Assembly (NCBI RefSeq): GCF_002252625.1
Contig: NZ_NQKW01000007.1
Coordinates: 62,001-126,000, forward strand
Length of the DNA stretch: 64,000 nucleotides
Origin: Synechococcus sp. 1G10
Lineage (GTDB): Bacteria > Cyanobacteriota > Cyanobacteriia > PCC-6307 > Cyanobiaceae
Direction: 5' to 3'
Positions within the stretch are counted from its first letter, which is position 1. The number at the start of each line of letters is the position of its first letter. The notes below the pieces were generated by a model. That model searched no databases. It worked only from the letters and a program-made list of their open reading frames with translations, and had not been told where the DNA came from. Shown one piece after another: positions 1 through 17,339 of the stretch. A program made the translations under genes and the position numbers.

Positions 1-94
1 ACAGCATCAGCGGCTGGTCGATGGGGCTCATGCGCATCCGCCGCGTCACGTCGTCGCGCAGGCGTTCGTAGGTGGGGGAGGAGGGCGGAGGCAT
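1..94 (-). pseudogene. HNH-endonuclease-like gene, N-terminal remnant (cut by window edge)
   Basis: On the minus strand an ATG at 94 opens a frame containing the block RRMRMSPIDQPLML, which recurs in several remnants of this island. The longest copy (2741-3252) continues into an HNH-like motif, so I read this as the start of the same family. The gene runs off the window, so its intactness cannot be judged. Confidence 0.55.
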
Positions 95-131
95 GGGGGC
101 ATCCTCGCTGGGGTGTGACGGGGGTGGCACT
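92..131. repeat. R1 repeat, copy 1
   Basis: About 40 bp beginning CATGGGGGCATCCTCGCTGG and ending GGGGGTGGCACT on the plus strand. On the minus strand it is the start codon and upstream leader of the HNH-like remnant. It lies 108 bp before higB. Ten copies occur in the window, all in this orientation. Confidence 0.85.
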
Positions 132-239
132 TGTAAGCGGAAGAACACAGGCAAGCCAGGCCGCCATGTCAGCTCCTGATCGCATTCGGCCTGTCCCACC
201 GCTTGGCGTGCCTACGTTTGGCGGTGGTAAGGTAGCGGT

Positions 240-518
240 GTGATCAGGTCGTTTCGTTGCCGAGACACCCGGGCCCTGTTTTCGGGAAAGCCGGTGCGGC
301 GCTTTGGGAGCATCGCTCGTGTGGCCTTCCGCAAGCTCGCCATTCTTGATGCCGCCGCATGCCTCAACGATCTGCAGATTCCACCAGGCAACCGCCTGGA
401 GCCGCTCCGGGGAGACCGCCATGGCCAGCACAGCATCCGCATCAACGACCAGTTCCGGCTCTGCTTTGTCTGGTCGGAAGCCGGGCCAGAGGATGTCGAA
501 ATCGTTGACTATCACTGA
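240..518 (+). CDS. higB: HigB/RelE-family toxin
   Basis: 92-residue protein of the HigB (plasmid maintenance system killer) family, which are ribosome-dependent mRNA endonucleases. It has the usual length and the typical C-terminal run FRLCFVW followed by a terminal DVEIVDYH. Start is GTG at 240. The downstream higA begins 5 bp after the stop, giving the usual toxin-first order of higBA. No frameshift or internal stop is seen, so the toxin looks intact. R1 copy 1 lies just upstream. Confidence 0.88.
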   Translation: MIRSFRCRDTRALFSGKPVRRFGSIARVAFRKLAILDAAACLNDLQIPPGNRLEPLRGDRHGQHSIRINDQFRLCFVWSEAGPEDVEIVDYH

Positions 519-522
519 CGTG

Positions 523-807
523 ATGCTCGTTCACCCGGGCGAGGTGCTGCTGGAGGAGTTCCTGCGGCCATTGGGGATCAGCCAGTACCGGTTGGCGCTG
601 GCGATCGATGTGCCCGAGAGCCGCATCAACGCGATTGTGAAGGGCAGGCGCGCTATCACGGCAGACACCGATCTGCGCCTTTGCCGGTTCTTTGGTCTGA
701 GCGAGGGCTTCTGGCTGCGGATGCAAGGGAGCCATGATCTGAAGCTGGCCAAGCAGGCTCTGGAAAGCGTGCTGCCGGCGATCGAGCCAATTCAGCCAAT
801 GGCGTGA
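523..807 (+). CDS. higA: HigA-family XRE antitoxin
   Basis: 94-residue helix-turn-helix antitoxin. It begins MLVHPGEVLLEEFL, the standard HigA/VapI opening, followed by the HTH segment ISQYRLALAIDVPESRINAI and a conserved ITADTDLRLCRFFGLSEGFW block. ATG at 523 is preceded by an in-frame GTG at 520. Expected to neutralise HigB and repress the operon. Appears complete. Confidence 0.9.
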   Translation: MLVHPGEVLLEEFLRPLGISQYRLALAIDVPESRINAIVKGRRAITADTDLRLCRFFGLSEGFWLRMQGSHDLKLAKQALESVLPAIEPIQPMA

Positions 808-850
808 GCAGGGCTGGCGGCTGCAGGGTGTTTGGGCCAGGTTTGGATTT

Positions 851-950
851 GGGCGGCCCGTCAGGCTGGCGCCCCTGCTGGGATCCCTTCTGGCGTGGGC
901 GCGTGGCGGCTGCAGCCAACCCGGCTCCGGGTGTGGCTGTGCCGCCCCAG
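851..950 (+). repeat. R2 repeat, copy 1
   Basis: About 100 bp starting GGGCGGCCCGTCAGG and ending GTGCCGCCCCAG. The ends form an inverted repeat (GGGCGGC/GCCGCCC). Inside are two perfect palindromes, GGGATCCC and GGCTGCAGCC. It sits 67 bp upstream of hicB. Seven copies occur, all on this strand. Confidence 0.88.
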
Positions 951-1017
951 TCCGTCTGCCCAGTCAGCAGCAGAATCCCTTCCTCCACTGCAAGACTGGT
1001 TCCACTGGAGGCTGGCC

Positions 1018-1224
1018 ATGCAGGAAATTCTTTTCGTGGTCGAAGAAGCGGAGGATGGCTCCTTCCGGGCCAGTGCAGCCGGTGCAGCGATCCACACCGA
1101 GGCAGGCACCCTCGAGGAGCTTCACCGGGAGATCCGCGATGCGGTCGTCTGCCACTTCGATCCCGGCGAGGCGCCACCCCTGATTCGTCTCCATCACGTG
1201 AGGCAGGAACTGCTGGCCCTGTGA
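1018..1224 (+). CDS. hicB: HicB-type antitoxin (short form)
   Basis: 68-residue protein beginning MQEILFVVEEAEDGSF, with the AAIHTEAGTLEELHREI core of a partial-RNase-H-fold HicB antitoxin (similar proteins are often mislabelled 2-oxoisovalerate dehydrogenase). Start is ATG at 1018 after R2. Its stop overlaps the GTG start of the following hicA by 4 bp (GTGA). The antitoxin looks complete but its toxin is broken. Confidence 0.75.
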   Translation: MQEILFVVEEAEDGSFRASAAGAAIHTEAGTLEELHREIRDAVVCHFDPGEAPPLIRLHHVRQELLAL

Positions 1225-1423
1225 GGATTCCGCCGGACGTCAATGGCCAGCTCCTGGCCGAGCGTCTGCGGCGCCATGGCTACGTGCTGACGGCAATCAG
1301 CAACACATCACCATTCCCGCCCACAAGCCCCTACGGGTCGGCACATTGCGGCAGATCCTCAAGGACGTGGCCGCTCAGCTGGGCTGCTCGATCGAAGAGC
1401 TCATCGCCAGCCTGGACCTATGA
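1221..1423 (+). pseudogene. hicA: HicA-family toxin, frameshifted by an internal deletion
   Basis: GTG at 1221 opens VRIPPDVNGQLLAERLRRHG, the normal HicA N-terminus. After GYVLT the reading frame is lost. Homology resumes in another frame as HITIPAHKPLRVGTL through IEELIASLDL to a stop at 1423. The segment that should carry the conserved G-S-H region between the halves is missing, so a frame-changing deletion removed the catalytic centre. Confidence 0.78.
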
Positions 1424-1527
1424 GGACTGGGCCTTGGGGCCGATCTTCTTGGCCGTGGGGATCAGATGTGCTGCTGCCAGCGTCTCGGATCAGCGTGTCT
1501 CGCCCATCCGCTTCATGCGTTCGGTCG

Positions 1528-1567
1528 CATGGGCGCATCCTCTCTCGGGTGTGACGGGGGTGGCACT
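1528..1567. repeat. R1 repeat, copy 2 (with degraded HNH start)
   Basis: Same leader as copy 1 with a few changes. The minus-strand text beyond it (EADGRDTLIR) also follows R1 copy 10, so these two copies share a divergent 5' end. It lies upstream of the DUF433 gene. Confidence 0.75.
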
Positions 1568-1655
1568 GATTTCTTGATGACGCCTTTTCGGTTGGCCATG
1601 CCGGCACCCCTCAGACCGGCCTTTGCTCACAAGCACACCGCCAGCCTTACGTGTC

Positions 1656-1678
1656 TATACTCTGTTTCAGGTTGAAAC
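1656..1678 (+). promoter_or_regulatory. Probable promoter -10 and operator of the DUF433/DUF5615 pair
   Basis: TATACT at 1656-1661 resembles a -10 box. It is followed at once by a perfect 6-bp inverted repeat, GTTTCA-GGT-TGAAAC (1664-1678). An inverted repeat between promoter and start codon fits autoregulation by the antitoxin. Inferred from position only. Confidence 0.5.
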
Positions 1679-1689
1679 ATGGTTTTGCG

Positions 1690-2295
1690 ATGGCTTCTGG
1701 CCTCACTGCCGCCACCGGGGCCGCCCTGCTCGGAGCCGATGCCCGCCTGCTCGCTCAGGAATACCGCCGCGTACTCGCGCCGCCAGGATCGTCCTCTTCG
1801 GCGCCTCTACGGCTTGGCTTTCGCGAGCTCCTCTACTTCCAGGTGGTGAGCAGCCTGAGTGCCGAGGGCCTGCAGCTTTCCCCTGCCCAGAAGCGGGAGG
1901 TGTTCCGTGTGCTCACCGTGAAGCCCCAGCGACAGGTTGCCCAGGGGGAGTGGTCCCGTGGCCGCGGTGAGCTGCGCAAGACAGGTGCTGTTCCCTTCAG
2001 TTTCGACCTCAGCGGCGTGAGCCGGGACCTGCGTTATCGCTACCGGCTCCATAGACGGCCCGATGCTCTGGTGGAGAGCGATCCGGCCATCTGCTCAGGG
2101 CAGCCTGTGTTCCGGGGCACCAGGATTCCCGTGGCTGTGGCTGTGGAGCAGCTGCGCTCCGGCGTCAGCCGCAGCGAGCTGGAAGCCGACTTTCCCCATC
2201 TCAGCCACCAGGCCCTCGATTACGCGGAGATCCAGGCGCGCCTGCCCAAGCCTCCCGGCCGCCCTCGGCGCCCCCTCGCCCTGCAACGCGGCTGA
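1690..2295 (+). CDS. DUF433-domain antitoxin (VapB45-like)
   Basis: 201-residue protein with an N-terminal alpha-helical region and a C-terminal DUF433 domain. The domain is recognised from DPAICSGQPVFRGTRIPV followed by LRSGVSRSELEADFPHLS. DUF433 proteins pair with PIN-like DUF5615 toxins, and that partner begins 12 bp downstream. ATG at 1690 follows the inverted repeat at 1664-1678. No clear Shine-Dalgarno is visible. Confidence 0.82.
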   Translation: MASGLTAATGAALLGADARLLAQEYRRVLAPPGSSSSAPLRLGFRELLYFQVVSSLSAEGLQLSPAQKREVFRVLTVKPQRQVAQGEWSRGRGELRKTGAVPFSFDLSGVSRDLRYRYRLHRRPDALVESDPAICSGQPVFRGTRIPVAVAVEQLRSGVSRSELEADFPHLSHQALDYAEIQARLPKPPGRPRRPLALQRG

Positions 2296-2306
2296 AGGGC
2301 CATGCC

Positions 2307-2684
2307 TTGAGATTGTTGATCGACGAAAATCTCAGTCCTCGCTTGACCCGCTGGGCCTGTGAACAGGGAATTCCGGCAGAGGCGGCCGTGCATGTCGGTC
2401 TGGCTGGCGCCAAGGATGAGGAGGTCTTCGCCCATGCCCTGGCCCGCGATCAGATGGTGGTCACGGTGAACGTGGGCGATTTCATTCGCTTGGCCGCCAC
2501 GATGGAGGTGCACCCCGGCGTGATCGCGCTCAGGGAAGCTGGCTTGAGTGCGGAGCAGCAGTGGCTCCGGGTCCAATCAGCCTTACAGCTGATCCAACAC
2601 GGGAACGACATTGACCTGATCAATCGCGTGCTTGAGATCCAATCCGAAGCTGTGCACGTGTGGCATGAGATTCCTGCCAGCTGA
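2307..2684 (+). CDS. DUF5615 PIN-like toxin
   Basis: 125-residue protein starting MRLLIDENLSPRL from a TTG codon. The acidic LIDENLS motif and TVNVGDFIRLA are typical of the DUF5615/Mut7-C PIN-like fold, a predicted metal-dependent RNase. It is the cognate toxin of the DUF433 protein just upstream. No internal stop or shift is seen. Confidence 0.82.
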   Translation: MRLLIDENLSPRLTRWACEQGIPAEAAVHVGLAGAKDEEVFAHALARDQMVVTVNVGDFIRLAATMEVHPGVIALREAGLSAEQQWLRVQSALQLIQHGNDIDLINRVLEIQSEAVHVWHEIPAS

Positions 2685-2740
2685 GTCAATGAATAGCGGT
2701 GCAACTCTGAGACCAGCGGTGGCGATGGCTTGTCTGCATT

Positions 2741-3252
2741 TCAGCGGAAGCCAAGCGCCTGCAGGTTGTTGATGTCCTCGGAGCCGCTCTGGTTTCTGGG
2801 GATGATGGGGTCCACCTCCAGGGCGCACTGGTGCGGGATTTGCTAATCAACAGCCCGCGCCGCAGCATTCGGGCGGCCCCGGGCGCGGAAGGCGACCAAG
2901 CGCTTGCGGCAGAGCTGCTGCAGCTCGTCGCGCTCGGCGTCGCTCAGCTCAACTGCTTCGCAGAAGCCTTCGGCTACGCCGCCCAACAGACGGTCGTGGT
3001 CGTTGGCGTAGCTGGTCACGCCGTTGACGGTGAGCACCCGCCCCACCATCCGCTGCACGTAGGTGGCGATCTGGTTCACGTCTTCCCCCAGGATCCGGCG
3101 GGCGATGTCCTGCGTCGGGGCTGGGCTGGCTGTTGCTTGGCAAATCAGCGGCCCAGCAGTTCCATGAGCATCAGCGGTTGGTCGATGGGGCTCATGCGCA
3201 TCCGCCGCGTCACGTCGTCGCGTAGGCGTTCGTCGGTGGGGGAGTGGTGCAT
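2741..3252 (-). pseudogene. HNH-endonuclease-like gene, longest remnant
   Basis: Minus-strand frames run from ATG at 3252 (MHHSPTDERLRDDV) through MSPIDQPLMLMELLGR, DIARRILGEDVNQIATYVQR and LSDAERDELQQLC to ALEVDPIIPRNQSGSEDINN, an HNH-type motif ending at a stop near 2741. The expected His of VDHIIP is Pro here, the segment before the HNH motif is missing and the frame shifts more than once. This copy shows what the shorter remnants derive from. The gene is dead. Confidence 0.72.
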
Positions 3253-3293
3253 GGCAGACCCGATCAAGCTGATGGCCTCTGAGACCGCCCAAC

Positions 3294-3596
3294 TCAAGGC
3301 TTGGAGCGTTGACGCAAGAGCTTTGGGTCGCGGCCGCAATGAAGCACGGCCAGCACCACGATGCTGCCCTGCTCGGGAACCGGCAGGTAGATGACGCCGT
3401 ACGGGAAGCGCCGGATCAGGGCTCGGCGGGTGCCGCGGTAGCCCGCGGGGAAAGCCTCAGGGTTGCTGCGTATGCGCCGGAGGGCCAGGCGCACCTGATC
3501 CAGAAAGTGCTGGCCCAGGCCCTGCTCCTGAGCTTCGTACCAGCGAACCGCAGCCTCGAGATCAAGCCGGGCTTCCGGGCGGAGCCGCAGCACCAT
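3294..3596 (-). CDS. parE: ParE/RelE-family toxin
   Basis: 100-residue RelE/ParE-superfamily toxin. The N-terminal RPEARLDLEAAVRWYEAQ and the later RRALIRRFPYGVIYLP are diagnostic. Start is ATG at 3596, 2 bp after the antitoxin stop. Same-strand antitoxin-then-toxin order. Intact by reading. A decayed second copy of the pair lies at 8376-8620. Confidence 0.87.
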   Translation of the reverse strand: MVLRLRPEARLDLEAAVRWYEAQEQGLGQHFLDQVRLALRRIRSNPEAFPAGYRGTRRALIRRFPYGVIYLPVPEQGSIVVLAVLHCGRDPKLLRQRSKP

Positions 3597-3598
3597 GC

Positions 3599-3808
3599 TC
3601 AGAGGGACTGCTCCAGGGCGTTCAGCACCTCATCGGCATCAAGGCCGGGGTTGCCGTCCGCCAGGAAGCTCTCCAGCCGTTGATCGATCAGCTGCCGATC
3701 GGCCTCCGTGAGTTCAGGGCCGATCTGCTCAGCGGCGATCGAGTCCCACAGGCTTTGCACCAGCTCCAGCCGTTGCGCCAGGGGGAGGGTCAGCAGGTCA
3801 TTCACCAC
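3599..3808 (-). CDS. Addiction-module antitoxin (PF09720-type)
   Basis: 69-residue antitoxin with the pattern LPLAQRLELVQSLWDSI and a C-terminal RLESFLADGNPGLDADEVL, typical of the short addiction-module component paired with RelE/ParE toxins. I start it at GTG 3808; a second GTG at 3805 is possible. The longer upstream frame to 3892 does not resemble the family. It directly precedes parE. Confidence 0.8.
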   Translation of the reverse strand: MVNDLLTLPLAQRLELVQSLWDSIAAEQIGPELTEADRQLIDQRLESFLADGNPGLDADEVLNALEQSL

Positions 3809-3898
3809 ATGCCGTGCCGGCAGGGCCGGAGACCAGATGTTTTCACGGTAGCCGGGGCCTGCAGACGCGTCGCCCTCGCAGCCCCAGCGCATTTACGG

Positions 3899-3973
3899 CA
3901 GCACCTTGCCCACCATCCGATTTCCAGAATCCGCCGGGCCGCGTCGTGCACCGGGGCACGGGCAGGTTTGTTG
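3899..3973 (-). pseudogene. HNH-like gene fragment next to R2
   Basis: A short stretch matching the middle of the HNH-like gene (the A-R-R-I-L region) on the minus strand. It is joined directly to R2 copy 2. With R2 it fills the 370 bases before mntA; nothing else is seen there. Confidence 0.5.
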
Positions 3974-4056
3974 TTGAGCGGCCCGTCAGGCCATCGCCCT
4001 TGCTGGGATCCCTTCTGGAGTGGGCGCGTGGCGGCTGCAGCCAACCCGGCTCCGAC
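3974..4056 (+). repeat. R2 repeat, copy 2 (3' truncated)
   Basis: Matches R2 from the GCGGCCCGTCAGG end through GGGATCCC and GGCTGCAGCC to CCCGGCTCCG, where similarity stops. 120 bp upstream of mntA. Confidence 0.8.
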
Positions 4057-4176
4057 CCGTGCTCGCAGCAACCAGCGCCAAGAGAAGAAGGGATCCATCC
4101 AATGCTCACGGCAGCTTCAGCCTGCGGGGCAGCACGGGCACCCTCCCGGCAGAATGGCATCGAGATCGGAACTCCG

Positions 4177-4482
4177 ATGCGCAGCACCAGCCCACGGACC
4201 GAACAGGTGCTCAGCACCCTGCGTCTCCATCGTGGCGACTGGCAAGAGCGCTTCCACGTGGTTGATATTGGCGTCTTCGGTTCCATTGCCCGTGGCGACG
4301 CCCGCCCTGACAGCGATGTTGACGTGTGGGTGCGGCTGGATCCGCTGACCCCCTATGCCTTGGTGCACATCAAGCAGGAGCTGGAAACGTTACTGAGCAC
4401 GTCTGTGGATGTAGTGCGGTTGCGCGAGCGCATGAACCCTTCCCTCAAGCAGCGCATCCTTGACGAAGGCCTGCGGCCATGA
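4177..4482 (+). CDS. mntA: MNT-domain nucleotidyltransferase antitoxin (MntA)
   Basis: 101-residue minimal nucleotidyltransferase. The catalytic pattern is visible as FGSIARGDARPDSDVDVWV (GS-x10-DxD). MntA proteins neutralise the HEPN toxin HepT by modifying it. ATG at 4177. The stop overlaps the ATG of the hepT frame by 4 bp (ATGA). The antitoxin looks intact while its partner carries a nonsense codon. Confidence 0.85.
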   Translation: MRSTSPRTEQVLSTLRLHRGDWQERFHVVDIGVFGSIARGDARPDSDVDVWVRLDPLTPYALVHIKQELETLLSTSVDVVRLRERMNPSLKQRILDEGLRP

Positions 4483-4841
4483 CGGAAGGCTCCAGCCAGT
4501 TGCTGGATGACCTCCTGACTGCCCTTGAACGTGGCAGCAGCAAGAGTCAGCCTCTTTTGTAGAACCCATCTCAAGTTGATACAGAGGTGGGCCGGGATCT
4601 GCTTGACGTGATCTGCATGCAGTTCCTCGCGATCGGTGAGGCTCTCAAGCGTTTTGAACGCCACTGGCCTGGTCGTCTGCAGGCCGAATTCCCATCGGTG
4701 GATTGGAAGGGGGCCATGGGTTTTCGCGATGTGATCGCCCATCAGTACTTCGATCTCGACAGTGAACAGGTGTTGCTGATCTGTGAGCAATCCCTGCCTG
4801 AACTGATCGCAGCTGTTCTGGCGTTGCGACAGTGCCAATGA
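4479..4841 (+). pseudogene. hepT: HepT-type HEPN toxin with an in-frame TAG
   Basis: From ATG 4479 the frame reads MTEGSSQLLDDLLTALERG, then meets TAG at 4560-4562 (codon 28). It continues in the same frame for 93 codons through DVICMQFLAIGEALKRFERH to the stop at 4841. The HEPN catalytic pattern R-x4-H-x-Y is intact (FRDVIAHQYF). A single nonsense codon therefore separates this from a full toxin. The segment around the TAG is also less family-like, so a small extra change there is possible. Confidence 0.8.
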
Positions 4842-4861
4842 TCAGCCGGCCTGAGGACGCC

Positions 4862-4998
4862 ATGCAGGAAATTCTCTATTTGATCGAGAGGCGAAAGACG
4901 GTTCCTTCCTGGCCAGCGCAGCCGATGCCGCGATCCACACCGAGGCCGCCCAGCTGGGCTGCTCGAGCGTCGTAGTGATCAACAGCCTGGACCTTTGA
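4862..4998 (+). pseudogene. HicB start fused to HicA end (deletion remnant)
   Basis: Opens MQEILYLIE like the HicB proteins at 1018 and 8945, then carries pieces of the same gene including the IHTEA region. It jumps straight to the HicA C-terminal end (AAQLGCSS ... SLDL, stop at 4998). Everything between, including the gene junction, is gone and the frame is shifted inside. Confidence 0.7.
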
Positions 4999-5007
4999 AG
5001 GCGGGGG

Positions 5008-5024
5008 GTGACTGGGGTGGCACT
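5008..5024. repeat. R1 repeat, copy 3 (partial)
   Basis: Only the GTGACTGGGGTGGCACT half of R1 remains, followed by the usual GGAGAAGC-like downstream text. 108 bp before the next antitoxin start, as for copy 1. Confidence 0.6.
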
Positions 5025-5132
5025 TGTAATGGAGAAGCTTTGCTGCCTTGGCCTTGACCCCTCCCATTGCTTTGTCAGCCTTGGGGCGTGCCTACGTTGG
5101 GTTCTCAGCCGTCCGTGGTGGCGATGACTCCC

Positions 5133-5339
5133 ATGTCTGACCTCCTTCAACTGCCCCAGGGCGAACGGCTGGCCTTGGCCATCGCCCTCTGGAAGAGCCT
5201 GGATGACGAGGCCCGAGATGGAGCGCTACCACTTGATTCCGCCCTCTGCGCTGAGCTGGATCGGCCTTGGATGAACCCCTGCCCTGTGGCTTTGCCGTCA
5301 GAATGGATCTCCTGCCGCCCCGCCGATGCCCACTCCTGA
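5133..5339 (+). pseudogene. Addiction-module antitoxin (PF09720-type), C-terminus altered
   Basis: Starts MSDLLQLPQGERLALAIALW and matches the better-preserved paralogue at 14027 through ALPLDSALCAELDR. After that the sequences diverge and the HLNNPGGAVA segment of the paralogue is absent. No toxin follows. It appears to have lost its 3' part together with its partner. Confidence 0.65.
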
Positions 5340-5502
5340 CCCTGAGCTTGAGCGGATGCGCCAGAGGGCCAGCGCTCGGCCCCTTCGCGCGCGCATCATC
5401 CGCGCCGTGGCCACCTCCACGGCCATTGAAACGGGTCAACCGGTCGCGGTGATCGAGCGGGCACTCATGGATCGACAGTCGACCAAGGCAACACCTCTCT
5501 GA
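5326..5502 (+). CDS. Small protein, unrecognised
   Basis: 58 residues from ATG 5326: MPTPDPELERMRQRASARPL, then a basic helical stretch ending in VIERALMDRQSTKATPL. It overlaps the 3' end of the antitoxin remnant by 14 bp and converges on the Fic remnant with a 38-bp overlap. Size and context suggest an antitoxin fragment, but I do not recognise the family. Confidence 0.35.
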   Translation: MPTPDPELERMRQRASARPLRARIIRAVATSTAIETGQPVAVIERALMDRQSTKATPL

Positions 5503-5815
5503 ATTGCTCTTTCATCGGAGTGAGATTGAGCACGGCACCTGCGCGGATAGCAGCAAAGTAGAGGTCTCGCTGTCGATCCCATGCTGCATAGTCGAGCGGC
5601 CCAATCCCTGCCTGGCAGGCCATCAGATCTGACATCTTCAGGCTGCGGCTGGGTACCCCACTGCCGATGATCCCCTGGTATAGATCAAGCAGCCGATTTC
5701 GCTCGAGTGCTTCTATCACAACTGGATCCTTGATGCCCAGCAGGTTGCGCAGCACCAATCCCTCCGAACCCGGCTCACACTCCGCCGTTGACCCAACAAC
5801 TCTGTACCGGCTCAT
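5465..5815 (-). pseudogene. Fic-family protein lacking its catalytic core
   Basis: 116-residue open frame. The N-terminus MSRYRVVGSTAECEPGSEGL with VLRNLLGI matches the start of roughly 190-200 residue Fic proteins. The C-terminus MSDLMACQAGIGPLDYAAW with YFAAIRAG and LTPMKEQF matches their end. The intervening region that should hold the HPFxxGNGR AMP-transfer motif is absent. The frame stays open across the join, so a core-less product could be made but could not be an AMP transferase. Confidence 0.65.
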
Positions 5816-5861
5816 CCTGTCTGCTCCAGCGCGCTTGCTCGATCAGGCCACTTACCGCACT

Positions 5862-5988
5862 CACAGCGGGTGATGCCGTTGCCGGTGAGTAACTTGCCCG
5901 CCATCTGCTGGACCATATGTCTCCTGCGCATCCGCCGGGAGATGGAGTCGCAGAGGCGTTCGTCGGTGGGGGAGGGATGCGGGGGCAT
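5862..5988 (-). pseudogene. HNH-like gene remnant
   Basis: ATG at 5988 gives MPPHPSPTDERLCDSISRRM, then jumps to KLLTGNGIT, a later part of the family, so the middle is deleted. R1 copy 4 is its leader. This accounts for the gap between the Fic remnant and tacA. Confidence 0.6.
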
Positions 5989-6023
5989 GGGCATCCTCGC
6001 AAGGGTGTTACGGGGGTGGCACT
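5986..6023. repeat. R1 repeat, copy 4
   Basis: Near-complete R1 (GGGCATCCTCGCAAGGGTGT then GGGGGTGGCACT). Precedes tacA by about 137 bp. Confidence 0.78.
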
Positions 6024-6160
6024 GGTAGGGGAGAAGCCCCTGCTGTGATGCCATTCCCTCCTTCAAGCTCTCGGCCAAGCCCTGCGGGACGCCTCTTCGC
6101 CGTCTGCGTGCGTCAGTTGTACTAACATCGGTCAGTCGCTCCAGCAGGAGAGTTATCGCC

Positions 6161-10535: not shown

Positions 10536-10538
10536 GTC

Positions 10539-10772: not shown

Positions 10773-10789
10773 GATTCGGCCTCGCTCAG

Positions 10790-11043: not shown

Positions 11044-11307
11044 ATGGAGTTCGCCTTCGATCCGGTCAAGAGTGCCTCCAACCTTGCCAAGCACGGCATC
11101 GACTTCCATGCTGCCCAGCAGCTCTGGGGGGATTCGGAGCTTCTGGAGCTTCCGGCCCGCACCACCGGGGAGCCGAGATTTCTGGTGATTGGCAGGATTG
11201 GCCTCAAGCACTGGTCGGCCGTGCTCACCTACCGCGACCAGTGCATCCGGTTGATTTCCGTTCGGCCGTCCAGACCAGAAGAGGTGGAGCTTTATGAACA
11301 GTTCTGA
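11044..11307 (+). CDS. brnT: BrnT-family toxin
   Basis: 87 residues. FDPVKSASNLAKHGIDFHAA at the N-terminus and a C-terminal IRLISVRPSRPEEVELYEQ are the BrnT signature (RelE-fold RNase). ATG at 11044. A possible -10 (TATAGA) lies about 15 bp upstream. Its 3' end overlaps brnA by 14 bp, the standard toxin-first order. Confidence 0.9.
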   Translation: MEFAFDPVKSASNLAKHGIDFHAAQQLWGDSELLELPARTTGEPRFLVIGRIGLKHWSAVLTYRDQCIRLISVRPSRPEEVELYEQF

Positions 11308-11524
11308 TTTCGATCAACGTTTTGATGACGGCGAGTCCGTGCTCGACGCCCTCGACCTCGGCGGTGCCCGTCGCCGTCGGCTGGAGCAGAAACGCGTCAA
11401 TGTCGACATCCCGGTGTGGATGATCGACCAGCTCGATCGCGAAGCCAGCCGACTCGGTGTCACGCGTCAGTCGATCATCAAGGTGTGGCTGGCAGAGCGG
11501 CTGGAGCAGCGGACGTCTGCTTGA
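11294..11524 (+). CDS. brnA: BrnA-type CopG antitoxin
   Basis: 76 residues, with the RHH element RVNVDIPVWMIDQLDREASR and GVTRQSIIKVWLAERL at the C-terminus. Overlaps brnT. Expected to neutralise BrnT and repress the promoter after R2 copy 5. Confidence 0.85.
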   Translation: MNSSDFDQRFDDGESVLDALDLGGARRRRLEQKRVNVDIPVWMIDQLDREASRLGVTRQSIIKVWLAERLEQRTSA

Positions 11525-11619
11525 GCGCAAGTTCGGCAGATCGGTGATGGTTGCGGCGACCAATGGCTTCGGCTGGAGGCAGGCACACCACCGCCACGGC
11601 TTGGATGAACACGTGGCGA

Positions 11620-11761
11620 CCCGGATTGGCATCCGTGAACTCACCTCCAGGCTGGCCGGCTGCTGCAGGCTGGACTGGAGCGTCTCGGCCTCAGCGAAGA
11701 CGAGCTCAGTGCCGACTTCAAGGCCTGGCGGCAAGGTCATCGTGACCAGGCAACGGCCTGA
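11620..11761 (+). pseudogene. Small antitoxin-like remnant (Phd-type start, unrelated end)
   Basis: IGIRELTSRL resembles the opening of Phd/YefM antitoxins. In another frame GLERLGLSEDELSADFKAWR follows to a stop at 11761 and looks like the end of a different small antitoxin. No intact frame joins them. Low certainty. Confidence 0.35.
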
Positions 11762-11765
11762 GTGA

Positions 11766-11811
11766 GGTTCCCCCAGGATCCGCCTGGGTACGTCCTGCGC
11801 GGGGGCGGGGC
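11766..11811 (-). pseudogene. HNH-like fragment
   Basis: A short PRRILG-type segment joined directly to R1 copy 7, so nearly the whole N-terminal region of this copy is deleted. Confidence 0.45.
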
Positions 11812-11850
11812 ATGGAGGCATCCTCGCTGGGGTGTGACGGGGATGGCACT
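11811..11850. repeat. R1 repeat, copy 7
   Basis: Nearly identical to copy 1 (TCCTCGCTGGGGTGTGACGG, then GGCACT). 97 bp before vapB. Confidence 0.83.
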
Positions 11851-11919
11851 GATGGATGAGAAGCCAATACCAGGCGCCATGCCTTTGCTTGCCCCCTCAG
11901 CCAGGCTGACGGAACTAAT

Positions 11920-11929
11920 GTGTAGACAC
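11920..11929 (+). promoter_or_regulatory. Possible vapB operator
   Basis: GTGTAGACAC, an inverted repeat (GTGT/ACAC) 18 bp before the vapB start. It has the same core as the palindrome at 9412 (GTGTATACAC) although the antitoxins belong to different families, so the similarity may be fortuitous. Confidence 0.4.
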
Positions 11930-11947
11930 CTCACCATGAGGTCACAC

Positions 11948-12151
11948 ATGGCCACGAATCTCGCTCTCGATCAGGCCCTGCTCGATCACGCCTTCCGTGT
12001 GAGCGGTGAGCCCACCAAGAAAGCCGCCGTCACCCGCGCCCTGCAGGAGTTCATCGCGCGCCGGGAACAGCGCCAGGTGGCGGAGCTCTTCGGCAAGCTC
12101 GATTGGGATCCCGGCTACGACTACAAGGCCGAACGTGATCGCCAGCTGTGA
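11948..12151 (+). CDS. vapB: VapB-type antitoxin
   Basis: 67 residues: MATNLALDQALLDHAFRVSG, KKAAVTRALQEFIARREQ and a C-terminal WDPGYDYKAERDR, a typical VapB with toxin-binding tail. ATG at 11948 has GAGG seven bases upstream; an in-frame ATG at 11936 is possible. Its stop overlaps the vapC start (GTGA). Confidence 0.83.
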   Translation: MATNLALDQALLDHAFRVSGEPTKKAAVTRALQEFIARREQRQVAELFGKLDWDPGYDYKAERDRQL

Positions 12152-12549
12152 GTTTGCTGGTCGATACGTCGGTGTGGTAGCTGGCTTTTCGCCGAGATGG
12201 CCAGCAGGGCGCGCCTGAGGTGGGTGCACTCCGTGCCGCGCTCCAGGGTGCCGAGCAGGTCTTCACCACCGGATTGGTGCTCCAGGAAGTGCTGCAGGGT
12301 TTTGCCGGCCCCAAAAACCGTGACGAGCTCGTGGAGCGCCTCTCCGTGCTCGCCTTTCTTCAGCCCGATAAGCAGGATCACATCGCAGCCGCCCACATTC
12401 GCAATTCCTGCCGCCGACGGGGTGTCCAGATCGGCACGATTGATGCCCTGCTCATCCAGCTTTGCCAGCGCTACGACCTGACGCTGCTCACAACGGATCA
12501 AGACTTTCAGGTGGCTTCTCAGCACGTGGATGTCCGGTTATGGGCGTGA
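12148..12549 (+). pseudogene. vapC: VapC PIN-domain toxin with an in-frame TAG
   Basis: GTG 12148 reads VSLLVDTSVW and then TAG at 12178-12180 (codon 11). The same frame continues uninterrupted to 12549 with LAFRRDG, VFTTGLVLQEVLQGF, GTIDALLIQL and LTTDQDFQ, all expected for a PIN toxin. Serine is usual at the stop position, so one C-to-A change (TCG to TAG) would explain it. A shorter product from GTG 12220 would lack the first catalytic Asp. Confidence 0.85.
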
Positions 12550-12550
12550 G

Positions 12551-12886
12551 CCACCTCCAGGGCGCACTGGTGCGGGATTTGCTCAGCAACAGCCCGCGCC
12601 GCAGCACTCGCCGCGGCCCCGGGCCCGGCAGGTGTCGAGGCGCTGGCGGCAGGGCTGCAGCAGATCATCGCGCTCGGCGTCGCTCAGTGGTGATGCGTTG
12701 CCGGTGAGCAATCGATCTGGATCACGTTCTCGCCGAGGATCCTGAGGGCCACGTCCTGCACTGGGGCGGGGCTGGGGCGTCCGAGCAGTTCCTGGAGCAT
12801 CAGCGGCTGATCGATGGGGCTCTGCGCATGCGCCCGGCGATGAACGTGCGCAGGCGCTGGTAGGTGGCAGAGGGGTGCGGGGCCAT
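12551..12886 (-). pseudogene. HNH-like gene remnant
   Basis: ATG 12886 opens MAPHPSATYQRLRTFIAGRM. Pieces PSISR, LTGNASPLSDAERDDLLQ and a terminal HQCALEV-like scrap follow in several frames. Its start lies just before mntA, taking the place of R1. No other feature is seen in this gap. Confidence 0.66.
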
Positions 12887-12945
12887 GCAGTCAGAGTGGC
12901 CAGCTCTCGCAGCGTGGGCTGGTGGCGAGCAGCACAATGGGAGTC

Positions 12946-13254
12946 ATGGATCCATCCAAGCCACCCACTCTTCAGCGGCTCAGGCAGTTCGCGCCCGAGT
13001 TGCTCGCTCTCACAGCCGCCCACGGTGGCCGGGATCTTCGTGTCTTCGGCTCCGTGATCCACGGCGCGGCAGGGCTGCAGAGCGACGTGGATCTGCTTGT
13101 GGATTTCCCCTCCAGCCCCAGTTTTGAGCAGTACATGGACCTCAAGCTGGCCCTGGAAGACCTGCTCAGCGCCCGGGTGGACCTGGTGACCCGCCGCGGT
13201 CTTCGCCCTGAGTTGCGGCAGCGGATTGAGCAGGAGGCCGTTCCTCTTGCCTGA
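12946..13254 (+). CDS. mntA: MNT-domain nucleotidyltransferase antitoxin (MntA)
   Basis: 102 residues. FGSVIHGAAGLQSDVDLLV shows the GS-x10-DxD catalytic pattern. LALEDLLSARVDLVTRRGL and the end RIEQEAVPLA are family-typical. ATG 12946 has GGAG four bases upstream. The 3' end overlaps hepT by 8 bp. Intact. Confidence 0.88.
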   Translation: MDPSKPPTLQRLRQFAPELLALTAAHGGRDLRVFGSVIHGAAGLQSDVDLLVDFPSSPSFEQYMDLKLALEDLLSARVDLVTRRGLRPELRQRIEQEAVPLA

Positions 13255-13603
13255 GGGGGGGAGTGCCCGGAATTGGTCGCTGTTCCTCCTGGACATGCAG
13301 CTGTGTTGCTCCAAAGTGCTCCGATACAGCAAGGGACTCACCCGGCAGCACTTTCTTGCTGACGAGATGTTGGTTGACGCCGTACTGCGCAACCTGGAGG
13401 TTCTTGGTGAAGCGGCGAAGCAGATCCCGCCGGCGGTCCGTGAGCGGCACCCCCAGGTGCCCTGGCGACGCATTGCTGGCCTCCGCGATGTTCTGGCGCA
13501 TGCCTACTTCGGCCTGGAAGAAGACACCATCTGGCGGATTGTTTCCGAGAGCATTCCAGCCCTGGCGGATCAGTTGGACCAAGTGATTGAGGCTGAGCTC
13601 TGA
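13247..13603 (+). CDS. hepT: HepT-type HEPN toxin
   Basis: 118 residues from TTG 13247. The HEPN catalytic residues are present in GLRDVLAHAYFGLEEDTIW (R-x4-H-x-Y). LVDAVLRNLEVLGEAAKQIP and the end ADQLDQVIEAEL match the HepT (DUF86) family. It overlaps mntA by 8 bp. This is the one complete mntA-hepT pair of the three in the window. Confidence 0.86.
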   Translation: MPEGGSARNWSLFLLDMQLCCSKVLRYSKGLTRQHFLADEMLVDAVLRNLEVLGEAAKQIPPAVRERHPQVPWRRIAGLRDVLAHAYFGLEEDTIWRIVSESIPALADQLDQVIEAEL

Positions 13604-13684
13604 TGGCGGCTGGTGCGGCGATCGCGTTGCGCAGAGCCATTCCCTGTTGTTCTCCTCCGGTTCACGGGCAAACCCAACCCGGAC

Positions 13685-13881
13685 CTTCACCGAGCCGCTG
13701 ATCGGTGTGCGATAGCGGCACAGCTGCTGCAGCTCGTCGCGTTCGGCGTCGTTCAGCTCGCTTGCGCCACTAAGTCTGTAAACCCCACTGCCGTAGACGG
13801 TGATGCCGTTGCCGGTGAGTCATCTATCTGGGTCACGTCTTCCCCCCAGCATCCGCCGGGCGCCGTCCTGCGCCGGGGCCA
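13685..13881 (-). pseudogene. HNH-like gene remnant
   Basis: Minus-strand pieces LSDAERDELQQLC-like, GNGIT, and RRMLG-type segments in broken frames, ending at R1 copy 8. The 70 bases before it (13610-13680) match nothing I recognise. Confidence 0.55.
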
Positions 13882-13918
13882 GGGGCATCCCGGCTGGGGT
13901 GAGACGGGGGGTGGCACT
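13882..13918. repeat. R1 repeat, copy 8
   Basis: R1 with GGGGCATCCCGGCTGGGGTG and GGGGTGGCACT, followed by GGAGGAGAAGCCCATGCG. This downstream extension recurs after several R1 copies, so the unit is longer than 40 bp. 108 bp before the antitoxin. Confidence 0.75.
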
Positions 13919-14026
13919 GGTGGAGGAGAAGCCCATGCGCCATGGCATCCATCTCTCCAGTCCTTTGGCCCCCTTTTGGCCGTGCCCAATGTGAGTTCCT
14001 CACCGAGTGTGGCGGAGCTGGCGCCC

Positions 14027-14338
14027 ATGTCTGACCTGCTGCAACTCCCGCCGAGCGAGCGGCTGGCCTTGGCGATCGCCCGCTGGGACAGCCTGGATGA
14101 CGAGGCTCGAGTTGGAGCGCTGCCACTTGATTCCGCCCTCTGCGCCGAGCTCGACCGGCGCTGGGCGACCCATCTCAACAACCCTGGCGGCGCGGTGGCC
14201 TGTGATGAGGTGCGCAGCCAGCTCGACGCCAGAGGACCGAGCCCGCGGTTCGGTCCTGCCGCAGGCGCTGGAGGGTCTACTGGAAACCCAGCGCTGGTAC
14301 GGCAGGCTTTAGCCGGCGTTGGCTCGTGGCTTCGCTGA
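14027..14338 (+). CDS. Addiction-module antitoxin (PF09720-type), 3' end probably shifted
   Basis: MSDLLQLPPSERLALAIARW through WATHLNNPGGAVACDEVRS matches the family at full length. The frame then continues past the expected end (after about residue 70) into about 30 residues rich in Gly and Arg that do not belong, suggesting a frameshift near the normal stop. The antitoxin part may still work. Confidence 0.68.
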   Translation: MSDLLQLPPSERLALAIARWDSLDDEARVGALPLDSALCAELDRRWATHLNNPGGAVACDEVRSQLDARGPSPRFGPAAGAGGSTGNPALVRQALAGVGSWLR

Positions 14339-14400
14339 AGCCTTCGCTGCTGCGGTGGAGCACATCCACAACGATCCCAGAGGGGCTGTTGGCCATGGAG
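14226..14400 (+). pseudogene. ParE-family toxin with TAG and 3' truncation
   Basis: The frame reads VLPQALEGLLETQRWYGRL, meets TAG at 14310-14312, and continues in the same frame as PALARGFAEAFAAAVEHIHN before losing similarity near 14400. A Gln codon (CAG) is plausible at the TAG. The toxin's C-terminal half is missing, so it is doubly disabled. Confidence 0.68.
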
Positions 14401-14442
14401 CGATGGTGAGGGCTGCCGGGCTCCATGGCCAGGACTGGTTTT

Positions 14443-14541
14443 GGCGGCCCTTCAGGCCATCGCCGCTGCTGGGAGGCCTTCTGGCGTGATCGCGTGGCGG
14501 CTGCAGCCAACCCGGCTCCGAGGGTGGCTGTGCCGCCCCAG
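14443..14541 (+). repeat. R2 repeat, copy 6
   Basis: R2 with the GGGATCCC palindrome mutated (GGGAGGCC) but GGCTGCAGCC and both ends recognisable. Only 42 bp from the mazE start. Confidence 0.8.
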
Positions 14542-14583
14542 CCACTGGAGAGGTTTATCCTTCTGTTTATACGTCTGATTCCC

Positions 14584-14844
14584 ATGGCCGCCACCCCTTC
14601 CCGCCAGGCCCTGCGCCGTTGGGGCAACAGCCTCGGTATCCGCTTGCCCGCCTCCATCGCCCGGGAGGCTCAGCTGCAGGTGGATCAGGCCGTGGAACTC
14701 TCCGTTGTCGAGGGAGGCGTGATGATCCGGCCGGTGCAGCAGCGCCTTTCCCTGGCCGAACGGCTGGCGGCCTACGAGCCCATGGCTGGCGAACCCACCG
14801 AGGCCATGGCCTTCTCTCCGCTGGGTGCTGAGGTCATCGAGTGA
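14584..14844 (+). CDS. mazE: MazE-type AbrB-fold antitoxin
   Basis: 86 residues. LRRWGNSLGIRLPASIAREA is the swapped-hairpin AbrB DNA-binding motif, followed by VDQAVELSVVEGGVMIRP. ATG 14584; a -10-like TATACG lies at 14568-14573, so the mRNA may be almost leaderless. The stop overlaps mazF by 4 bp. Confidence 0.88.
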   Translation: MAATPSRQALRRWGNSLGIRLPASIAREAQLQVDQAVELSVVEGGVMIRPVQQRLSLAERLAAYEPMAGEPTEAMAFSPLGAEVIE

Positions 14845-15224
14845 GTCCCCGCCGCGCCGTCCAAGACTGGGTGCCCGATCGTGGCGATGTGATCTGGATC
14901 GACCACAACCCCCAGGCCGGCCGCGAGATGAAGGATCACCATCCCTTTGCGGTGCTGTCCACCGCTTCCTTCCACGCCACCGTGGGCCTTGTGGTGGGCT
15001 GCGCGATGACCTCAGCTCCCTACAACCGTGGTTCCACCCTTGCTGTGGACCTGGGTCCCATCCCCGATCGGCCTGGTGCCCACAGCTTTGTGCTGTGCCA
15101 GCAACTCAAATCCTTCGACTGGCGCGCCAGGGGCGCTCGCCCCCATCCGATCGGCCGACTGAACGACACCCAATTGGAGGAGGTGATGGCGATCGTGGGT
15201 CAGATCCTTGGGTTGGTGGTGTGA
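14841..15224 (+). CDS. mazF: MazF/PemK mRNA interferase
   Basis: 127 residues from GTG 14841. RGDVIWIDHNPQAGREM, HHPFAVLSTASF and FVLCQQLKSFDWRARGA are conserved MazF elements (sequence-specific mRNA cleavage). It overlaps mazE (GTGA). No damage seen. Confidence 0.9.
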   Translation: MSPRRAVQDWVPDRGDVIWIDHNPQAGREMKDHHPFAVLSTASFHATVGLVVGCAMTSAPYNRGSTLAVDLGPIPDRPGAHSFVLCQQLKSFDWRARGARPHPIGRLNDTQLEEVMAIVGQILGLVV

Positions 15225-15239
15225 GCCATCGGCCGCCAG

Positions 15240-15425
15240 TTGAGGCGTCATTGTCGTCATCGAGGGAGGAAGGATGGCTCCTGCCGGGCCAGCGCAGCCG
15301 CTGCCGTCATCAGTACCGAAGCCGACACACTGGAGGACCTCCACCGGGAGATTGCTGGCGCTGATCGACCAGCTGCCGATCGGCTCCCAGGGGCTTTGAA
15401 CCAGCTCCAGCCGCTGGCGGTCTGC
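15240..15425 (+). pseudogene. Mosaic of HicB and PF09720 antitoxin scraps
   Basis: The first half resembles the middle of the short HicB (KDGSCRASAAAAV, TEADTLEDLHREIAG). The second half matches, on the minus strand, pieces of the antitoxin at 3599 (positions around 3680-3785, with an internal gap). Two unrelated TA genes are fused end to end. Confidence 0.62.
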
Positions 15426-15536
15426 CTGCGATGAATACCTTCCGCTTCACCCGCCGATCCCTCCTGGATCAGAACCGGTGCCCGATGATCAGCAGCGTGC
15501 TGGCTCGCCCTTGCGCCACCGCAGCAGATCCTCCCG

Positions 15537-16757
15537 ATGGGCCTCTTCTTCCCAGACCCTCTCTTTGAGCGCTTTGCGCTCCGCGCCCTGTCGCATGCGG
15601 TCTATGGCGGTGCGGATTTCGGCGAGTGCTTCGTGACGGCATCAAAAATCGCCCCCGGGGATGTGGACAGCTGGTTCAACGCCTGGACCGCCACGGCGGA
15701 TCGGGTCGTTGCCATCGCCAACACGTCTGCGGCCGCCGGCCACTCGGTGAGCGCCCGTGAGGCCTGGCTGCGGGCCAGCAACTACTACCGCACCTCCTGG
15801 CTGCCGCTCTTCGGTGCGCCCGTGGAGGCCCGGCTGGTGGAGGCCTTTGATCGGGAATCCGAGGCGTTCGCCAGGGCGGCTGCGCTGATGACGCCGGCCG
15901 TGGAGGCCGTGGAGATCCCCTACGAGGGAACGAGCCTGCCCGGCTACTTCCACCGTGCCAATGATTCGGGCCAGCCGCGCCCCACCCTCATCGCCACCAA
16001 CGGCTATGACGCCACCGTGCACGAGGCGCACTTCGCCCATGCCGTGGCCGCCGTGCGCCGCGGCTACCACTGCCTCACCTTCGATGGCCCCGGCCAGGGC
16101 CGTCCCCTCATCCACCAGAGCCTGGTGTTGCGCCCCGATTGGGAGGCCGTGGTGCGTCCGGTGATGGACTACGCCCTCTCCCGAGCGGACGTCGACCCGC
16201 AGCGGATCGCGCTGATCGGCTGGAGTTTCGGCGGCTATCTGGCGCCCCGCGCGGCCAGTGGCGAGCACCGCCTCGCGGCCTGCATCGCTGACCCCGGCCA
16301 GTGGGACCTGCTCGAGGCGCTGCGCACGAACCTGCCGCTTCCCCCAGCCGTGCGCGAGCGCCTCCCGGAGATCGACCCCGCCGATCTCGAGGCCTTCGAG
16401 GCCGAGATGCGCTCCAACCCCTCTCTGCAGTGGACCGTCCGGCGGGCCCTCTGGGTGCACGGGCTCGATTCGATCGCCGAGTATTTCCGGATCGCCGGCG
16501 ATTACAGCCTCAGGGGGCGCGCCGAACGGATCCGCTGCCCCACGCTGGTGGCCTGGGCGGAAGGCGATCCGATCGCCCGCTTCGCGGAGCAGCTCCATGC
16601 CGCGCTGCAGTGCTCCCGCACCCTCGTGCGTTTCACCGCCGCCGAGGGCGCCGGCGGCCACTGCGAAGAGACGGCCCGCTCCCTGTTCCACCAGCGCGCC
16701 TACGACTGGCTGGACGGTGTGTTCGCCAACCCCCGCGCAGCTCACCCAAGCCGTTGA
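15537..16757 (+). CDS. Alpha/beta hydrolase (esterase/peptidase-like)
   Basis: 406 residues with an N-terminal helical domain (to about 130) and a C-terminal alpha/beta-hydrolase fold. The nucleophile elbow is GWSFGGY (Ser near residue 226), the acid is probably Asp in WAEGDPIARF and the His is in GAGGHCEETA. The layout resembles the family of 2,6-dihydroxypseudooxynicotine hydrolase and related C-C hydrolases or dipeptidyl-peptidase-like proteins. Substrate unknown. It is the only clear non-TA enzyme inside the TA array. Confidence 0.8.
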   Translation: MGLFFPDPLFERFALRALSHAVYGGADFGECFVTASKIAPGDVDSWFNAWTATADRVVAIANTSAAAGHSVSAREAWLRASNYYRTSWLPLFGAPVEARLVEAFDRESEAFARAAALMTPAVEAVEIPYEGTSLPGYFHRANDSGQPRPTLIATNGYDATVHEAHFAHAVAAVRRGYHCLTFDGPGQGRPLIHQSLVLRPDWEAVVRPVMDYALSRADVDPQRIALIGWSFGGYLAPRAASGEHRLAACIADPGQWDLLEALRTNLPLPPAVRERLPEIDPADLEAFEAEMRSNPSLQWTVRRALWVHGLDSIAEYFRIAGDYSLRGRAERIRCPTLVAWAEGDPIARFAEQLHAALQCSRTLVRFTAAEGAGGHCEETARSLFHQRAYDWLDGVFANPRAAHPSR

Positions 16758-16813
16758 CGGCACCCTGCGGTTCGTTTCCCCCCGCCCTGCCCCTGGCCGC
16801 CAGGCTGGGTTTT

Positions 16814-16912
16814 GGGCGGCCCGTCAGGCAGGTGCCCCTGCTGGGATCCCTTCTGGCGTGTTCGCGTGGCGGCTGCAGCCAACCCGGCTCCGGGTGTAGC
16901 TGTGCAGCCCCA
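16814..16912 (+). repeat. R2 repeat, copy 7
   Basis: Complete R2 with one change in the right end (GTGCAGCCCC). The sequence after it (CCCTTCATCCGCAGAACCGATGGGCAGGC in part) is also shared with copies 3 and 5. 118 bp before mntA. Confidence 0.85.
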
Positions 16913-17030
16913 GCCCCCTTCATCCGCAGAACCGATGGGCAGGCTACTCCTGAGGATTCCAACCGAAGGGTGGAGGCGGATTAGCCTGGGATCGGGGCGG
17001 CGAGCAGCGCGGGGCACCAGATTGGGCACC

Positions 17031-17339
17031 ATGACCGGCAGCCAACCCCGAACTCTCAAGCAGCTGTCGCAGTTGGCGCCCAAGCTGCAGGCGCTCATCG
17101 CTGCCCACGGTGGTCGGGATCTGCGGGTCTTTGGCTCTGTGCTCCACGGCACGGCAGCGAACCAGAGCGATGTGGACCTGCTTGTGGATTTCCCAGGCAG
17201 CCCGAGTTATGAGCAGTAAATGGATCTCAAGTTCGCCCTCGAAGACCTGCTGAAGGTGCATGTCGATCTGGTCACGAGGCGTGGACTGCGTGCTGAGCTG
17301 CGTGAACGGATCGAGCAGGAGGCGATCCCACTTGCCTGA
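17031..17339 (+). pseudogene. mntA: MntA antitoxin with in-frame TAA
   Basis: Closely related to the mntA at 12946. FGSVLHGTAANQSDVDLLV keeps the catalytic pattern, but codon 63 is TAA (17217-17219) where the paralogue has TAC (Tyr) in the same context (EQ-stop-MDLK). The frame then continues to 17339. Here the antitoxin, not only the toxin, is broken. Confidence 0.85.

Follow-up and report, generated by a model that had tools for sequence, protein, structure and literature searches.

The left part of the DNA analyzed here, a 64,000-bp window (C19:62001-126000) on one contig of the draft genome of the picocyanobacterium Synechococcus sp. 1G10 (the source genome; 3.34 Mb, 84 contigs), carries an array of toxin–antitoxin (TA) gene pairs. 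By sequence comparison the array is a row of units, each made up of a 5′ remnant of a gene for a nuclease with HNH and HIT domains (HNH-HIT), a short repeat (R1 or R2, named on the plus strand of the window) and a TA pair. It displays repeated gene ends, a single orientation, a polarity of truncation, and single units that are common to different strains and end at the repeats. We think that the region is probably an integrase-free, homology-anchored cassette array, in which TA pairs would be captured at the ends of a restriction operon, exchanged by homology and retained through addiction. TA pairs seem to be swapped between strains of freshwater and coastal picocyanobacteria through leftovers of the HNH gene.

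The HNH-like remnants are parts of a 333-amino acid (aa) protein with HNH and HIT domains (PF01844, PF01230; protein from genome G038), and all of them derive from one and the same gene. On the minus strand, R1 extends from the sequence upstream of the HNH-HIT gene into the gene start. R2 starts about 29 bp past the end of the HNH 5′ match in SynAce01 (G089) and in G058, and in WH 5701 (G004) a near-complete HNH gene starts beside it. The upstream flank of this minus-strand nuclease gene thus exists in two versions, R1 and R2. A preliminary description of this DNA had treated R1, R2 and the HNH remnant as three separate upstream modules; because R1 and R2 are alternative flanks of one gene, the three reduce to one, the 5′ end plus upstream flank of the HNH-HIT gene. 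Its statement that no operon has both R1 and R2 holds for the same reason. An RNA element was also considered for R and rejected: Rfam gave no match in window positions 1-19000, and when one copy each was folded, R1 and R3 (the repeat of a second array, below) did no better than shuffled sequences and R2 only weakly better (z −1.96 and −1.77).

Copies of R1 and R2 in the window were located by a hidden Markov model (HMM) and are listed with the TA units in Table 1. An independent recount found 16 plus-strand TA operons or remnants between 0.2 and 17.6 kb, in agreement with the 16 previously placed behind R1, R2 or an HNH 5′ end (the count omits two short hicB pieces at ~4888 and 15270, and RHH/PIN pieces at ~21.4 kb). 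Their upstream element is a clear R1 in six, a weak R1 in two (~5133 and ~7077), R2 in six, and the HNH 5′ end alone in two (RHH-PIN at 9398 and MntA-HepT at 12922). The distances of 67 and 66 bp given for two hicB copies from R2 are both correct. The array extends beyond the 92-17031 first assigned to it: its start lies ~3.6 kb to the left of window position 1 and its other end at ~20.7 kb.

In the source genome, window positions 1-600, R2 and the HNH remnant were used as queries, with 40 candidates scored for each. All matches fell within C19:58.9-82.7 kb except for 27 bp at C19:52137 and HNH pieces at C54:72.7-73.0 kb, an HNH-HIT remnant outside the array (C54:72677-73043). R1 and R2 are therefore not genome-wide intergenic repeats there, and the refuting outcome named in the preliminary description was not seen. 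Among 149 genomes surveyed, the source genome counted, the R2 query matched 20 and the HNH 5′ end with R1 matched 22, all in the same family; five candidates were scored per genome, so copy numbers are lower bounds. A scan of the genome_contigs collection with an HNH alignment gave 49 loci, 47 of them cyanobacterial (mostly Cyanobium and Synechococcus). After 11 duplicate and two non-cyanobacterial loci had been dropped, 36 of these and 26 from the surveyed genomes gave 62 loci, several of them contigs of metagenome-assembled genomes, each set to a common direction by us. Their orientation is without exception: 105 R1 and 95 R2 are all plus, and 414 HNH segments are all minus. The gene that flanks the array in the source genome (a weak Glyco_hydro_57 match) was sought in 15 array genomes; it lies on the array contig in 10 and on another contig in four (G005, G040, G044, G058), had no match in G055, and stands to the right of the array in G083, G089 and G090. 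A phage or plasmid vector was rejected: the exact cores of R1 and R2 had no match in viral_contigs, R2-hicB had none in plasmids, and the matches to HNH-HIT in 85 phage records were all partial, under 60% in identity and short of 80% coverage.

What follows R was scored for 198 copies, two near contig ends being excluded. A plus-strand TA-type match follows 164 (100 of 104 R1 and 64 of 94 R2), a minus-strand one 8, a non-TA gene 4 (three AMP-ligase genes and one gene of a family, F6, described below), and 22 have no query match. Plus-strand TA matches start within 200 bp of 93/104 R1 and 60/94 R2; random points in the same arrays (300 draws) gave means of 32 and 30 and maxima of 46 and 47, respectively. 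The TA query proteins were partly picked from sequences downstream of R, which favors matches there, and the random controls use identical queries. Random points within arrays thus lie this close to TA starts far less often than R does. An earlier query set (29 window translations and one hand-made HicA, including an out-of-frame UnstabA2 translation that gave 8 matches) had found plus-strand matches within 700 bp of 137 of 200 R copies. TA operon starts in the arrays of all loci number 233 on the plus and 36 on the minus strand. Minus-strand pairs had been said to stand outside the rule, which is not wholly so, as 16 of the 36 have R at most 200 bp upstream.

The upstream module is not simply the fixed one first suggested, since R type and TA type are not independent (their mutual information is 0.79 bits, against at most 0.25 in 2000 shuffles). 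HigB, DUF6883, VapB, HicB3 and ParD4 were seen with R1 only, HicB, MazE, BrnT and BrnT2 with R2 only, and TacA, MntA and PhdVapB with both. R tends to travel with its TA, the link being weak at the level of R sequence. The distance from R to the TA is fairly constant (median 88 bp, quartiles 52-107), and R is present even where the HNH gene is reduced to a few dozen codons. Both facts would suit a functional link, with R a shared divergent promoter/operator, TAs kept for shared regulation and recombination history secondary. We regard this as very unlikely, because most HNH copies are incomplete, TA types carry their own sequence between R and the start, and the second array has a gene 3′ end in the place of R.

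Truncation of the HNH remnants is polar. Across the 32 loci that have four or more remnants, median coverage of the 333 aa is 253.5 for the leftmost remnant and 100 for the others; the longest is leftmost in 18 and second in 7. The leftmost copy retrieved need not be the real head of its array, for some of the stretches stop at contig ends or are centered on the best HNH match. The N-terminus is retained in 105 of the 158 remnants that are not first, the C-terminus in 9. Remnants shorten rightward in 28/32 arrays and, without the first remnant, in 14/21 (p=0.011). Unit boundaries mostly fall near TA ends: in 451 pairs of cassettes with the same TA in different genomes, homology stops before the end of the TA match in 27 and no more than 50 bp after it in 229. 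Judged by eye, HNH or R sequence follows beyond the TA at an entry point that differs from case to case, and the R core is kept while its junction with the TA-specific part differs between TA types; no motif common to the TA-flanking junctions was seen.

Single units are shared between strains. The TacAT unit whose right end lies at the left edge of the window matches SynAce01 at 60 of 60 bases in 17 of the 18 consecutive steps over its TA part; identity dips in R2 and in the HNH remnants, and disappears within the HNH 5′ remnant on the left side and at the border of HNH-5′ and R1 on the right. The flank gene is 84.7% identical between these two genomes. The window's own TacAT cassette (5866-6951) matches J7-Johnson (G001) from its R1 to the next R1 (6951-6993), outside of which the sequences differ; here the flank gene is 94% identical. 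Over 48 near-identical blocks, 91 of 192 ends lie in R or HNH repeats, and random placement gave a mean of 64.4 (sd 6.0) with a maximum of 83 in 1000. Exchange tracts ending in shared repeats are found in the two worked cases and in the excess over the 48 blocks, and the cassette-like architecture and recombination scar of the preliminary description are supported. The HigBA unit is duplicated within the array, the similarity of the copies being lost at the HigA end. Together with the origin of all HNH remnants from the same gene, this would agree with tandem duplication and decay of one HNH–TA unit, the TA diversity being separate and the shared blocks due to descent or ordinary gene conversion. 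We hold such a history to be unlikely, as 17 TA query labels stand behind R1 and 9 behind R2 (some are related genes), the TacAT unit is almost identical in SynAce01 though the flank gene is 15% different, and shared cassettes have different neighbors.

The array works like an integron array, yet it fails the integron features tested, and we place it among TA-rich cassette arrays in defense islands. Sedentary chromosomal integrons of Vibrio carry TA cassettes, and the arrays described here resemble them in being one-way and TA-rich and in having cassettes common to strains in different surroundings. They differ in that the contig has no tyrosine recombinase, there is no attC-like folding, junctions vary, and the repeat is the end of a gene. 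A site-specific system, in which a trans-acting recombinase inserts TA cassettes at R much as in a sedentary integron with its integrase elsewhere, would explain why the arrays run one way and consist mostly of TA cassettes with a short repeat in front; it also finds some encouragement in the presence of the same flank gene on the array contig in 10/15 array genomes examined and in eight Phage_integrase (PF00589) matches elsewhere in the source genome, seven of them above the cut-off. None of these is on C19 (serine recombinases and transposases were not searched for). R-TA junctions vary by TA type, TA-HNH junctions occur, by eye, at many points of the HNH gene, and the two arrays are built on unrelated end sequences; the folding and Rfam results above speak against such a system too, so that we judge it distinctly unlikely. 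Of the integron features, a single cassette orientation is present (R and HNH without exception, TA starts mostly plus), and a tyrosine recombinase beside the array is absent. An attC-type cassette end with a single exact recombination point is not seen either, for junctions vary on both sides and folding is weak or absent (the attC model was not run). Features of insertion sequences (IS) or miniature inverted-repeat transposable elements are also lacking: the 117 repeat pairs across C19:57-82 kb are all direct with none inverted, and R1 and R2 are not scattered through the genome. The suggestion that neither integrons nor IS elements are involved is upheld to the extent that the tests run gave no sign of either, transposases not having been searched for. 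SCC-type elements have a recombinase and a fixed att core, and their tandem copies repeat a gene end before each inserted unit. The present arrays share that repeated gene end ahead of each unit and differ in that units mostly carry only a TA pair.

A second TA array lies to the left of the HNH array (C19:40.6-51.9 kb), where minus-strand TA genes alternate with R3, the repeated 3′ end of a PLD-DEAD-DUF3427 helicase gene. On this side 44 repeat pairs were counted, the single inverted one lying outside C19:40.6-51.9 kb. R3 was found in 24/149 genomes, the source included, again with five candidates scored per genome and copy numbers as lower bounds; all 50 copies are minus, and in 13/13 genomes having both arrays R3 is left of all R1/R2 and oppositely directed. 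The helicase scores 870 bits against PADLOC mREase_IV (PDLC03659), with Pfam domains ResIII, DUF3427 and PLDc_2, and is predicted to be of the mREase_IV, type IV restriction-like kind. The island between the arrays contains genes for HNH-HIT, an SLFN-g3 helicase, the PLD-DEAD-DUF3427 helicase and an HNH_2 protein, with TA pairs around them. In the complete genome G082 the genes for HNH-HIT, the SLFN-g3 helicase and a 1052-aa helicase stand in one row, and because they are contiguous there the two arrays can be said to use the two ends of a G082-type gene row. G082 itself has no R1/R2 match, has R3 only as the normal gene end, and has MntA/HepT-like genes only ~3-5 kb off. Other genes lie between the two ends in G007, G083 and G089, and pieces of an SLFN-type gene remain in G079. 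Defense islands with type IV (modification-dependent) restriction genes likewise have TA pairs around the restriction genes; here, in contrast, the pairs are arranged in order, facing outward, and alternate with fragments of the genes at the island's own ends.

We also note that in G004, G005, G008, G044 and G058 the left array ends have F6 (~123 aa, conserved, no Pfam hit) and the HNH_2 gene beside HNH-HIT, in some of them with a BrnT-like gene as well. By impression, the N-terminal part of the HNH_2 protein may be EVE-like.

For the homology-anchored array that we favor, we envisage that a TA pair would first be captured beside a restriction-operon end by illegitimate joining. The unit could then move between strains by homologous, presumably RecA-type, recombination in the HNH-5′/R repeats, a step that the shared blocks support, the DNA probably arriving by uptake of free DNA. 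An incoming unit would enter between existing ones and leave the HNH gene beyond it as a 5′ fragment. Addiction would retain the TA while the remainder of each old HNH copy eroded, and the same process at the helicase gene 3′ end, on the other side of the island, would give the second outward-facing array. A bolder version has the restriction-operon ends serving as an attachment sequence, with the HNH-HIT nuclease or the adjacent HNH_2 protein cutting near its own 5′ end to drive exchange, which would make this its own kind of gene-capture platform; we think it quite unlikely. If true, the restriction system would be assembling a TA library on either side of itself and rearranging it.

Several observations weigh against the favored reading. 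R lies no farther than 200 bp from 142 of the 233 plus-strand TA starts; 25 have just an HNH N-terminus and 66 lack both. About half of the near-identical block ends fall outside the R/HNH repeats, and those within them could partly reflect faster repeat divergence; the ends are not independent, and core identity was checked for few pairs. Of 21 comparisons over seven genomes, no more than 15 show greater similarity for TA cassettes than for the flank gene, and 195/451 same-TA pairs stay alike for more than 50 bp past the TA-match end. R1 identity is 0.872 within and 0.864 between TA families (10/500 shuffles as high), R2 identity 0.836 and 0.816 (0/500), the 100 bp left of R2 has no TA-family link (443/500), and a TA is linked to the repeat behind its cassette about as strongly as to the one in front. 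Strict co-inheritance of R with its TA is rejected on this weak sequence-level link. Remnant identity falls with distance from the head in 18/32 arrays (p=0.057) and, with the head omitted, in 11/21 (p=0.78), which weakens a strict model with the newest unit at the head. Left and right repeat counts have a Spearman coefficient of 0.44 (p=0.13), or 0.28 without the largest, and a Pearson coefficient of 0.78 driven by the source genome; simultaneous two-sided nesting of island copies is rejected for want of a clear correlation. ComEC says little on DNA uptake, because it is present in 10/14 control genomes. The weak R-TA link, the lack of a clear gradient, the unanchored TAs and the off-repeat block ends are easier to reconcile with a history of extensive shuffling and loss than with an orderly array in which the newest unit comes first.

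As many as 42 TA pairs occur in non-marine picocyanobacteria, and a 2025 review describes TA function in cyanobacteria as largely unexplored (PMC12413379); CB0101 TA pairs are reported within genomic islands (PMC5498466, PMC12413379). The organisms are of the same kind as here, and the accessible parts of these two reports describe no array, repeat or HNH remnant. In searches of the open-access literature we recognized no description of the array, subscription journals being mostly uncovered. The array suggests a concrete integrase-free route for the accumulation and spread of TA pairs that may help explain such large collections, and it points to sites where new TA-like pairs (such as DUF6883/DUF4926) may turn up. 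Array-bearing and array-free loci exist in sequenced strains.

Table 1. Repeats, HNH-HIT remnants and TA units of the array (window coordinates)
Feature	Position	Strand	Remark
R1 copies (HMM)	87-135, 1527-1570, 5981-6027, 10127-10175, 11807-11854, 13881-13922, 20669-20716	+	
Weak R1 copies (HMM)	5002-5028 (13.6 bits), 6951-6993 (20.5 bits), 18333-18382 (14.0 bits)	+	
R2 copies (HMM)	836-950, 3962-4055, 7693-7780, 8764-8878, 10840-10949, 14428-14541, 16799-16913	+	
HNH-HIT 5′ remnant (to ~94, extends left of window) with upstream flank R1 (87-135)	1-140	−	Right end of TacAT unit near-identical in SynAce01
HigB-HigA behind R1	240-807	+	Pfam PF05015, PF01381; second copy ~2.7 kb leftward, outside window
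R2 (836-950), hicB (1018-1224), then frameshifted hicA remnant	836-1224	+	hicB named by position and recurrence in other arrays; no Pfam hit
R1 (1527-1570), DUF433/DUF5615 (PIN-like) pair	1527-2684	+	Pfam; 97% identity with J7-Johnson copy
HNH-HIT remnant, aa 6-190, fragmented	2729-3243	−	
ParE/Unstab_antitox pair, left of R2	3294-3892	−	Pfam
R2 (3962-4055), MntA-type nucleotidyltransferase/HepT	3962-4841	+	Pfam, HMM
Weak R1 (13.6 bits), then antitoxin-like remnant ~5133	5002-5028	+	
HNH 5′ remnant (5866-5988, minus), R1 (5981-6027), TacA/TacT	5866-6951	+	Pfam, HMM
Weak R1 (6951-6993), XRE antitoxin-like remnant	6951-7394	+	Pfam, HMM
HNH 5′ remnant (7352-7670, minus) beside R2 (7693-7780, plus), then minus-strand HicAB-like pair	7352-7780	−	Exception
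R2 (8764-8878), hicB (8945-9151)	8764-9151	+	hicB without Pfam hit
HNH 5′ remnant without R (9226-9389, minus), RHH antitoxin (9398-9685), PIN toxin (9685-10086)	9226-10086	+	Remnant by DNA similarity only
R1 (10127-10175), DUF6883/DUF4926 pair (candidate TA)	10127-10772	+	Pfam, HMM
R2 (10840-10949), BrnT/BrnA	10840-11524	+	Pfam, HMM
R1 (11807-11854), VapB/PIN	11807-12549	+	Pfam, HMM
HNH 5′ remnant without R (12607-12886, minus), MntA (12922-13254)/HepT (13226-13603)	12607-13603	+	Pfam
HNH remnant (minus, aa 41-191), R1 (plus, 13881-13922), then Unstab_antitox-like gene ~14027	13496-13922	−	
R2 (14428-14541), MazE/MazF	14428-15224	+	Pfam, HMM
R2 (16799-16913), MntA-like/truncated HepT	16799-17553	+	
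Final R1 of array, then RHH/PIN pieces (~21.3-21.5 kb) and flanking gene with Glyco_hydro_57 match (~22.0 kb)	20669-20716	+	

Pfam supports HigBA, DUF433/DUF5615, MntA-HepT, TacAT, XRE, RHH-PIN, DUF6883/DUF4926, BrnT with an RHH partner, VapB-PIN and MazEF in the window. It gave no hit for hicB, BrnT2, ParE4, PhdVapB, a Fic-like open reading frame or F6, and HicB3 and BrnA2 have hits only under the curated cut-offs. The R2 at 7693, which faces the minus-strand HicAB-like pair (7693-8276), is the sole R2 of the window to break the rule. A minus-strand ParE/antitoxin pair or remnant lies left of R2 twice, at 3294-3892 and ~8355-8750. Non-TA genes also occur inside the array ahead of the last R1 (20669), namely an alpha/beta hydrolase gene (15537-16757) and a glutaminase-TerB gene (18552-20285), and G058 has an AMP-ligase and a related hydrolase between R2 and R1. 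The DUF6883/DUF4926 pair (10164-10772) is found behind R1 in 11 arrays; its behavior is that of a TA pair, possibly of a kind not yet described.

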